From assembly GCF_003337735.1 (NCBI RefSeq), contig NZ_QPJY01000009.1, positions 133,124-167,145 on the forward strand: DNA of 34,022 bases. The letters run 5' to 3'. Of this stretch, positions 3-20,112 are shown in pieces (the first letter of the stretch is position 1; every line of letters begins with the position of its first letter). The notes under the pieces are model-generated. The model did not search any database. It was not told the DNA's origin and saw only the letters and a program-made list of their open reading frames with translations. Position numbers and translations under genes: made by a program. The stretch is from Thioalbus denitrificans (lineage in GTDB: Bacteria; Pseudomonadota; Gammaproteobacteria; DSM-26407).

Positions 3-77
3 GCGTTGCCGGCGCTGCTGAAAGGCTTGTTAACCGCAGATTACGCTGATTTGCGCAGATTTTTCAGTGCATGCTGA
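3..77 (+). CDS. possible 3' end of an upstream gene (partial)
   Basis: Frame 3 is open from the window edge to a TGA at 75-77 and would encode about 24 residues beginning ALPALLKGLL. The second half is read through the 9-bp-period repeat at 35-64, giving a tail like TADYADLRRFF. The first 30 bases are GC-rich like the main chromosome, and the AT-rich patch starts after them, which would fit the end of a chromosomal gene. The piece is too short to assign a family, and another frame also stays open for a while, so this is only a suggestion. Confidence 0.25.
   Translation, partial: ALPALLKGLLTADYADLRRFFSAC
35..64 (+). repeat. 9-bp-period repeat array, single arm
   Basis: Units CGCAGATTA (35-43), CGCTGATTT (44-52) and CGCAGATTT (54-62), the last shifted by one base, followed by a T run. 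This is the same family and orientation as the left arm of the inverted repeat at 8328-8361. No facing arm is visible nearby, so it may be a half element or have its partner outside the window. Confidence 0.75.
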
Positions 78-8327: not shown

Positions 8328-8551
8328 TTTTCTCCGCAGATTACGCAGATTGCGCAGATTTTTCCCGGGGCCTGCAGAGTGCGTTGGCGGAACATATGCC
8401 TCATGGTGGGATGAGGCCAGGAAAGAAACAGGCAGTGCAATACCGGTTTCAGTGTCTCCACGAAGTCCACCGCCCGGATTCCCGACGGGCCTGTCTCAGC
8501 GCACGGACAATTTCAAGTAATCTGCGTAATCTGCGTAATCTGCGGAGAAAA
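8328..8551. repeat. inverted pair of 9-bp-period arrays (CGCAGATTN family)
   Basis: The left arm (8328-8361) is TTTTCTC followed by CGCAGATTA, CGCAGATTG and CGCAGATTT. The right arm (8518-8551) is three exact TAATCTGCG units followed by GAGAAAA. Read as reverse complements the 34-base arms differ at only two positions. They enclose 156 bases with no convincing gene; small open frames inside are chance or repeat-derived. The element fills nearly all of the 343-base gap between mrcB and the TPR lipoprotein gene. I know of no transposase associated with this type of repeat. Confidence 0.85.
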
Positions 8552-17903: not shown

Positions 17904-19187
17904 TCAGCCCAGGCGGGCGAAGACCCGTTCGGCGGCGGCGAGGGTGGCCTCGAGCTCGGCCTCGCCGTGGGCGGCGGAGACGAAGCCCGCCTCGAAGGCC
18001 GACGGCGCCAGGTAGACCCCTTCATCGAGCATGCCGTGGAAGAAGCGCTTGAACCGCTCCGCGTCGCAGGCCATCACTTCGGCGTAGCTGTTCACCGCCG
18101 CCGCTTCGGTGAAGAACAGGCCGAACATGCCCCCGACGCGGTTGGTGGTGAAGGGGATGCCCGCGGCGCGGGCCCGCTCCGCGAGTCCCTCGGTGAGGGT
18201 GCGGGTACGCTCGGCCAGCGTGGCGTGGAAGCCGGGGACGCCGATGAGCTCCAGGGTCTTGAGGCCCGCGGCCATGGCCACCGGGTTGCCGGACAGGGTG
18301 CCGGCCTGGTAGACCGGGCCGAGGGGTGCGAGGTGCTCCATGATCTCCCGCCGGCCGCCGAAGGCGCCCACCGGCATGCCGCCGCCGATGACCTTGCCCA
18401 GGGTGGTCAGGTCCGGGGTGATGCCGTAGTGGCCCTGGGCGCCGCCCAGCGCCACGCGGAAGCCGGTCATCACCTCGTCGAAGATGAGCACGCTACCGTG
18501 TCCGCTGCAGACCTCCCGGAGTCCCTCAAGGAAGCCGGGCAGGGGCGGGATGCAGTTCATGTTGCCGGCCACCGGCTCGACGATCACCGCGGCGATCTCC
18601 GCGCCCAGGCGGGCGAAGGTCTCGCGCACCGCCTCGATGTCATTGTAGGGCAGGGTCAGGGTGTGCTCGGCCACTGAGGCGGGGACGCCCGGCGAGCTGG
18701 GCACGCCCAGGGTCAGCGCGCCGGAGCCGGCCTTCACCAGCAGGGCGTCGGCGTGGCCGTGGTAGCAGCCCTCGAACTTGACGATCTTCTCCCGGCCGGT
18801 GAAGCCGCGGGCCAGGCGGATGGCGCTCATGGTGGCCTCGGTGCCCGAGTTCACCATGCGCACCATGTCCATGGAGGGCACCAGCTCGCACACCCGGTCG
18901 GCCATGCGGGTCTCCAGCTCCGTGGGAGCGCCGAAGGAGAGCCCGTGGGTCGCGGTCTCCTGCACCACCCGGATCACCTCGGGATGGGCGTGGCCGAGAA
19001 TCATCGGGCCCCAGGAGCCCACGTAGTCCACGTAGCGGCGCCCGTCGGCGTCCACCACCCAGGCCCCTTCCGCCCGCTCGAGGAAGACCGGGTCCCCGCC
19101 CACGCCGCGGAAGGCGCGCACCGGGGAGTTCACCCCGCCGGGGATATGCCGCTGGGCCTGGAGGAAGAGGTCGTGGGAACGGGTCAT
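17904..19187 (-). CDS. hemL: glutamate-1-semialdehyde 2,1-aminomutase
   Basis: A 427-residue PLP enzyme, standard length. It converts glutamate-1-semialdehyde to 5-aminolevulinate in the C5 route to haem, sirohaem and related tetrapyrroles, in the cytoplasm. The Schiff-base lysine is K265 in [18 protein letters not shown]. Other signatures are [17 protein letters not shown], the PLP aspartate in [10 protein letters not shown], and the N-terminal [11 protein letters not shown] clear AGGAG lies before the ATG. The gene is preceded by a repeat element that separates it from thiE, so it may have its own promoter. It is convergent with hyfI. hemJ, another haem gene, lies 3 kb away on the same strand. 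Confidence 0.96.
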
Positions 19188-19277
19188 GGAAGGCTCCTTG
19201 GCTGACGGTTCAATCGCAAAGCGCCCATTGTAGCGGCTGAAGCGGGGGAGGGGTTAGACGGAGGCACGGAGGTGGAT

Positions 19278-19456
19278 GAATAGACAGGATTAACAGGATT
19301 TACAGGATTGAAAGTCATCTACGGGCAACGATTGACGCAACCGCCGGGGGTGCACGCAACTTCGCCGGTGAGCCGCCACCGGTCCCCGCTCTCCATCAAT
19401 CAAAAAATCCTGTAAGTCTCGGAAAATCCTGTAGGTCCTGTAAATCCTGTCTATTC
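19278..19456. repeat. inverted pair of 9-bp-period arrays (ACAGGATTN family)
   Basis: The left arm is GAATAG followed by ACAGGATTA (19284-19292), ACAGGATTT (19293-19301) and ACAGGATTG (19302-19310). The right arm faces it with AATCCTGTA (19406-19414), a degenerate unit, AATCCTGTA (19425-19433), GGTCCTGTA (19434-19442), AATCCTGTC (19443-19451) and then TATTC. About 95 bases without a gene lie between. The design and the 9-bp period match the element at 8328-8551, but the unit differs. A short run with two CGGAGG units (about 19257-19272) lies just outside the left arm. The end of the right arm includes the thiE stop codon. Confidence 0.85.
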
Positions 19457-20095
19457 GCCCTTGTCTTTGAATACACCGGCGTAGGCCGCGGCCGCGGCGC
19501 GGATGTCGGGCTGGCCGAACACGCCGTGGACCACGGCCAGGAGATCGGCGCCGGCGGCCACCAGTTCGGGGGCGTTCTCCGGGGTGACGCCGCCGATGGC
19601 GCAGATGGGGACCTGCAGCCGGGCGCGGGCCTCGCGCAGCAGCGCGAGGGTGGCGGGCGGCGCCCCGGGCTTGGTCCGGGAGGGGAAGAAGCGGCCGAAG
19701 GCCACGTAGTCGGCGCCCGCCTCCACCGCCGCCAGCGCCCGCTCCAGGTCGGCATGGCAGGTGGCGCCGATGATGGCGGCGGGGCCCAGCGCCGCGCGGG
19801 CCGCGGCGATGTCGCCGTCCTCCAGGCCCAGGTGCACCCCGCCGGCGCCGACGGCCACGGCCAGCTCCACGTCGTCGTTGATGATGAGGGGAATGCCCAG
19901 GGGCCGGCAGAGCATGGCCAGGTCCTCGGCCTCCCAGCGCCGGCGGCCGGCATCGGCGGACTTGTCCCGGTACTGCACCAGGGCCGCGCCGCCCGCGATG
20001 GCGGCCGCCACGGCGGGCACCAGCCGGTCGCTGCCGCCGAGCAGCGCGCCGTCGGTGATCACGTACAGGCCGCGCAGGTTTCGGGTGGGATGCAT
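19451..20095 (-). CDS. thiE: thiamine-phosphate synthase
   Basis: A 214-residue TIM-barrel enzyme of usual length. It joins HMP-pyrophosphate and the thiazole phosphate to make thiamine monophosphate. Conserved segments are [29 protein letters not shown] (Asp for Mg-pyrophosphate), [10 protein letters not shown], and [15 protein letters not shown] near the phosphate site. ATG 20095 begins the typical N terminus 17 bases after the thiD stop codon, so the two genes form an operon. The final residues (DKGE) and the TAG stop run into the 9-bp repeat element, whose conserved GAATAG provides the stop; the original C terminus may have been slightly altered. Confidence 0.95.
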
Positions 20096-20112
20096 GGCTT
20101 CTCCGCGGGAAT

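Follow-up and report, generated by a model that had tools for sequence, protein, structure and literature searches.

An inverted tandem-array element between thiE and hemL of Thioalbus denitrificans ends in a conserved motif that forms the thiE stop codon

The window analysed here, a stretch of 34,022 nucleotides of Thioalbus denitrificans DNA, carries thiE and hemL, whose names were confirmed by NCBIfam (TIGR00693 and TIGR00713, respectively), and between them a 179-bp element (window 19278–19456) in which facing arms of ACAGGATTN units flank a 95-bp centre (Table 1). The element lies upstream of hemL, 90 bp from its start. Its left arm consists of GAATAG plus three ACAGGATT units, and a 19-bp repeat makes up part of the right arm. 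When the arms were compared in inverted orientation, 29 of the outer 32 bases agreed, which confirms an earlier note, made from the sequence alone, that had described facing arms of 9-bp units with GAATAG ends at this site. A second element in the window has the same layout with a different unit, also as described there, and its outer end differs as well. Hairpins of −78.5 and −77.0 kcal/mol, one value per strand, were predicted for the thiE–hemL element; Rfam covariance models, applied at gathering score to the window and five element loci, gave no matches. Just beyond the left arm, and on that hemL-facing side alone, lies CGGAGGCACGGAGG (window 19259–19272), perhaps a remnant of another array with 8-bp units.

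Table 1. Positions of the element, its parts and neighbouring features in the window
Feature	Position	Strand	Description
Left (hemL-side) arm	19278..19309	+	GAATAG, then ACAGGATTA ACAGGATTT ACAGGATT
Centre	19310..19404		95 bp, without gene
Right (thiE-side) arm	19405..19456	-	five imperfect units, reading inward from GAATAG
GAATAG	19451..19456	-	final Glu codon plus TAG stop of thiE; same six bases as at the outer end of the arm family
thiE, thiamine phosphate synthase	19451..20098	-	215-aa frame, provisional start; NCBIfam TIGR00693
hemL, glutamate-1-semialdehyde aminomutase	17904..19187	-	NCBIfam TIGR00713; next gene, same direction
Second element	8329..8550		arms of CGCAGATTA units ending outward in TTTATC; 12 bp past a gene stop
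Extra CGCAGATT arm	29..51	+	left edge of the window; 0.87 match to arm consensus

Both repeat types are dispersed through the genome of the window (G000; 4.14 Mb, 21 contigs). The two-unit pattern ACAGGATTNACAGGATT gave 131 matches, with a chance expectation of ~0.0002 at 66% G+C and none in a backwards-read control, and the two-unit pattern of the CGCAGATTA family gave 141. Among 110 arm clusters, facing pairs comprised 35 of CGCAGATT and 21 of ACAGGATT; in composites, the CGCAGATT arm was always inside and the ACAGGATT arm always outside. The centres of the 76 paired elements range from 87 to 301 bp, with those of CGCAGATT elements clustering around 141 bp, and are mostly unrelated to one another, which is unusual for copies of one transposon and was counted against the interpretation preferred below. 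A third repeat, CACGAAGGCACGAAGG, flanks many elements externally. Predicted folding of either strand was far stronger than that of shuffled sequences, with a mean z of −6.7 for 33 elements of G000 and −8.7 for 21 elements of G083, a single-contig genome from a different family of the same class. Complementarity of the inter-unit bases in G083 fell below expectation (P 0.03 and 0.013, uncorrected), which suggests a stem with regular mismatches; in G000 it was at chance level.

Loci L166–L168, which hold lone arms in a repeat-rich region, were not counted in the statistics on pairing and context. At L166 and L167 (G000 C2:630–695 kb), lone ACAGGATT arms are numerous, share a single orientation and adjoin a GC-rich palindromic repeat (CGCCCCGGGGGCG...). 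For the lone arms at C2:630–716 kb, an integron/attC interpretation was considered and set aside, since these arms stand beside another GC-rich repeat. An autonomous element was likewise considered at L152, where arms lie 1.2 kb apart, and was rejected when the enclosed gene was found, by eye, to resemble the housekeeping protein RibB. At L399 (positions 1503–2742; G000 C1:774 kb), two CGCAGATT arms that point the same way flank a thiE paralogue (27% identity).

The thiE product ends ...FKDKGE*, with GAA and TAG read on the minus strand from 19456 to 19451, so that termination inside the right-arm GAATAG, as the earlier note had it, is borne out. At the six positions outward of the first unit in 94 ACAGGATT arms, taken from stretches around arms on contigs C1–C7 of G000, the base frequencies were G.53, A.90, A.94, T.97, A.70/G.26 and G.98; the outer end of CGCAGATT arms is TTTATC. 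The GAATAG ends of both arms are thus a property of the ACAGGATT family and no coincidence, and the last Glu codon and stop of thiE are arm sequence. An ancestral GAATAG stop that the element merely abuts, with the inverted GAATAG at the opposite end a coincidence, would find a precedent in one of 80 thiE relatives (L071), whose gene ends in GAATAG without the array. The earlier note had named just such an end as evidence against its claim; this single case, which we put down to a chance combination of codons, leaves the 94-arm consensus standing, and as GAATRG is conserved at the outer ends of those arms at unrelated loci, the match is what an element would be expected to bring. An ancestral stop is accordingly hard to credit.

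A comparison of ThiE C termini, as the earlier note had suggested, placed the T. denitrificans tail of 26 residues past the last shared motif well within the range of 79 relatives (21–41, median 25); the protein appears normal in length and, judged by its sequence, not visibly altered. Of the claim that the element landed at the end of thiE and set its stop, the second part is supported by the arm consensus, and the landing itself we infer, since the thiE–hemL locus falls in a contig gap in the sole sister genome (G001) and no element-free thiE allele was seen, a circumstance also counted against the preferred interpretation.

The genome-wide survey of stop overlap that the same note had proposed showed the arrangement to recur. 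Copies are intergenic and often lie within 12 bp of a stop. Facing the 76 paired elements of G000 are gene 3′ ends in 94 cases and gene 5′ ends in 57. Of the 47 3′ ends that face ACAGGATT arms, 29 are at most 12 bp away, and in 8 the stop lies wholly or partly within the outer six bases of the arm, the arm TAG serving as the stop in three cases (thiE, L119 and L137). The closest of 27 5′ ends facing such arms is 8 bp distant. The 21 paired elements of G083 are 64–102 bp long; 14 of them pair an AATAG end with an AATGG end, and no element carries the same end twice. An arm overlaps 8 of 23 gene 3′ ends in that genome, and 5 of the 21 elements provide the TAG stop of the adjacent gene (a gnd-type gene, aroA, fabD, argF and a cyclopropane-fatty-acid-synthase gene), so that arms of this kind provide the stops of further genes in two unrelated genomes. 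At the gnd junction, the products of element-free relatives (n = 7) end 5–7 residues past a shared motif, and that of G083 ends 6 past it.

The earlier note had left a choice between precise targeting of gene ends and tolerance there. The element is nearer the gene whose 3′ end it faces than the gene whose 5′ end it faces in 20/22 and 17/19 same-direction pairs. This bias fits a null model of uniform insertion in which 8–40 bp before the next start is kept free (KS P 0.08–0.56); tolerance at gene ends is therefore sufficient, and precise 3′-end targeting was dropped as unnecessary. The same positions could reflect a selected structural 3′-UTR element that is not mobile, acting as a bidirectional terminator or as a near-stop stem affecting translation or mRNA decay, an effect reported where a REP lies within 15 nt of a stop. 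The short distances between 3′ ends and ACAGGATT arms, the strong predicted hairpins and the excess of convergent over divergent sites (24 versus 6) would suit such a role, as would the ribosome stalling that PMC12306157 reports for REPs close to stops. We nevertheless judge it improbable, given the many copies between same-direction genes, such as those following aroA and fabD in G083, and the turnover seen in the sister genome.

That genome, G001, shows ~95% identity in the window. In a 20-kb stretch chosen regardless of G001, five elements were compared: one site lay within a 91%-identical alignment whose local part fell under the 85% filter, one element was reduced to a single arm, and three intergenic gaps were unalignable or held degenerate arms. 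Most elements of the stretch are thus missing or replaced in G001, which argues against a conserved 3′-UTR function. Orthologous pairs were also aligned, most of them picked for the presence of a G001 arm and hence biased with respect to element presence; one of 15 comparisons was excluded for a missing flank (L096). Among the 14 pairs with both flanks, the centre is clearly inverted in two (L137/L231 and L150/L238), weakly inverted in two (L116 and L119) and unchanged in orientation in ten, one of these weakly. Centres can therefore invert between sister species. Their replacement between species had been suspected where BLAST gave no match; closer alignment favoured inversion plus divergence, or divergence in the same orientation. 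At L132, the centre and one arm were lost via a 7-base microhomology. By eye, one centre is common to five G083 elements (L288, L289, L292, L293 and L303), in some of which the AATAG and AATGG ends are swapped relative to the centre, as if centres flip between ends that stay fixed. A different repeat of ~270 bp at L242 (9044–9315; G000 C2) has dozens of matches in G001 at 75–91% identity.

At the same junctions in relatives, arrays of other sequence were found. Other inverted-array families lie downstream of thiE in 3 of 79 relatives tested: a CGCAAAGG-unit arm begins at the thiE TAA in L009, GCACAGAG-type units follow closely behind the thiE TGA in L010, and CACGGAA-type units run from +23 past thiE in L016. 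In L009 and L010, a partner arm precedes the apparent hemL start (by eye). Relatives were searched for four of the eight G083 junctions, the fourth by its first gene only. Within the family of G083, inspection by eye revealed both arms after the argF stop in 3 of 11 relatives, with arrays in one more, and element arms after the fabD stop in 2 of 3. At the fabD junction of G382 (L329), an inverted array of ~11-bp units, AACCACAGATGAACACAGATAAACACGGAT, follows soon after fabD.

AATRGACAGGATTNACAGGATT is present in G000 and G001 and absent from 54 other relatives. Among 369 genomes of the class, 3 contain three consecutive units. Plasmids bearing arrays of this unit include those of Candidatus Thiodictyon, with facing arms and AATAG, and of Spirosoma (Bacteroidota), with facing arms that in one case lie within a cobalamin gene cluster; viral contigs contained few, with 2 and 3 stretches matching the two arm patterns.

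Some elements of similar plan enclose a gene. At L168, a 137-aa gene of the GxxExxY family (TIGR04256, E 8e-40; PF13366) lies between ACAGGATT arms spaced 631 bp apart, one with AATGG and the other with AATAG. All eight plasmid GxxExxY records were sampled, and in three (Sphingomonas, Bernardetia and Bacteroides) inverted arms passed the arm threshold. On the Sphingomonas plasmid, the gene order is fabD–GxxExxY–fabG, the GxxExxY gene having its own inverted arrays. A separate inverted-array element lies just downstream of the GxxExxY gene of L415, and that of L414 (Fusobacteria plasmid pZRK30-1) is flanked by direct repeats of ~45 bp, not inverted arms. For four-helix-bundle (S23) genes, 12 of 43 plasmid records were chosen to avoid near-duplicates; nine of the 12 are closely flanked by inverted arms, mostly of 7–10-bp tandem units (Fisher P ~1e-6). 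None of 27 control genes of comparable size, drawn from three of these plasmids, passed the threshold, and 1 of 180 random 370-bp intervals did. The gene ends of L415, L416, L428 and L431 are unannotated and were placed approximately. Several four-helix-bundle genes lie within operons, e.g. cas10-4HB-cmr3: on a Picosynechococcus plasmid (L429), such a gene with inverted arms of 9-bp units separates cas10 from cmr3 and thereby interrupts a type III-B CRISPR operon. Counted against the preferred interpretation are the 5/8 GxxExxY and 3/12 four-helix-bundle plasmid genes below the threshold, the standing of L168 as the only ACAGGATT element with a gene inside among the loci examined, and the finding of no four-helix-bundle gene in the chromosomal loci examined. 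A further 13 loci of G083 were scanned for arms alone, and no GxxExxY relative was confirmed in viral contigs. Open-access full text, a corpus that mostly excludes subscription journals, yielded no paper joining S23 or GxxExxY genes to inverted short-tandem arms and no match to the arm-unit strings; the accessible parts of the open-access literature on GxxExxY held nothing on such elements, and on S23/IVS and repeats the Coxiella paper discussed below alone looked relevant.

Repeats comparable to these units are presumably those named short tandemly repeated repetitive (STRR) heptamers in cyanobacteria. They share short purine-rich tandem units, which here form inverted arms around four-helix-bundle genes on Nostoc and Calothrix plasmids, and differ from the thiE element in unit and length. 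No link between STRR and four-helix-bundle genes was present among the literature matches listed.

An ordinary MITE- or REP-like palindrome family, mobilised by a transposase in trans, could also account for the dispersed copies, in which case the 9-base units and the GxxExxY and S23 genes would be incidental. PMC2229807 describes Correia/NEMIS MITEs as shorter than 200 bp, intergenic, bounded by terminal inverted repeats and transcribed into long stem-loops. The thiE element resembles these in being under 200 bp, non-coding and intergenic, with terminal inverted repeats and a predicted stem-loop transcript, and its family has a high copy number; the centre common to 5 of 21 G083 elements is as expected of copies of one element. 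It differs in that its arms are tandem arrays and the centres of its family are mostly unrelated, and the ordered nesting of CGCAGATT within ACAGGATT arms is a further difficulty. No clear excess of direct repeats was seen at arm ends at offsets of 0–15; assignment to bacterial MITEs fails on this lack of a target-site duplication, which was counted against our preferred interpretation as well. REP/REPIN sequences with their RAYT genes are similar in forming inverted pairs of short units at high copy near stops, and RAYT-like genes (PF01797) are present in G000, G001 and G083. The flanks of the 13 PF01797 loci in these genomes contained no ACAGGATT arm and one CGCAGATT arm, and REPIN/RAYT membership was rejected on this basis. 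Taken with the evidence on both sides, a MITE/REP-like origin seems to us unlikely. Near one RAYT gene (L382, 2066–2188), GCAGATGAATCTGC repeats, with 13 occurrences in the loci examined, probably represent a true REP family of its genome.

A closer parallel is offered by the intervening sequences (IVSs) of 23S rRNA. That of Coxiella, according to PMC4990558, has a ~28-bp mismatched terminal stem, three tandem GACAGAT heptamers near the arm and an S23 ORF in the loop, and is excised by RNase III. The thiE element likewise has terminal inverted repeats able to form a long stem, and S23-family genes on plasmids lie here between inverted tandem arrays. Unlike an IVS, the thiE element is located between thiE and hemL, at the end of an mRNA gene and outside any 23S rRNA gene, and its centre is without an ORF; a single member of its family holds a GxxExxY gene, and the S23-type genes found with such arms all come from plasmids of other bacteria. 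For these reasons of location and content, membership of the IVS family is not claimed, and the thiE element may, by analogy, work like an IVS.

On balance, we consider it somewhat more probable than not that the locus carries a dispersed, cargo-less, IVS-like inverted-array element that was inserted at the thiE stop, tolerated there and trimmed by RNase III, and that is kin to gene-carrying elements. Such an element would consist of two facing arms, each of at least three 9-bp ACAGGATTN units, with GAATAG or AATGG outward and a short centre. Insertion would have occurred at or beside the old thiE stop and may have been tolerated because the outer end of the element brings an in-frame stop. 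Once transcribed, the arms would pair as a stem of ~30 bp with mismatches, which RNase III probably cuts, trimming the thiE message and separating thiE from hemL in a manner likened to IVS removal from 23S rRNA. The thiE element, itself without cargo, would then be related to similarly built elements whose arms enclose a GxxExxY or S23/four-helix-bundle gene. No mobilising enzyme for it was found, which was counted against this interpretation.

A broader proposal, which we put forward tentatively and would doubt sooner than assert, is that architecture rather than sequence defines a cross-phylum class of mobile elements, with inverted arms of about three tandem 7–10-bp units, of which rRNA IVSs are a special case. 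Members would insert at gene ends and in operons, being mostly empty and sometimes holding an S23/four-helix-bundle or GxxExxY gene, and would survive in operons because their arms are excised or trimmed as double-stranded RNA and their outer ends supply stop codons. If this is true, a single architectural class of selfish elements would have as its cargo the orphan genes now labelled 'four helix bundle protein' or 'GxxExxY protein', rRNA IVSs would be one case of that class, and many unexplained short repeats beside bacterial stop codons would share an origin. The thiE junction would also show concretely how a mobile element may take over the stop codon of a gene and leave the protein undamaged.
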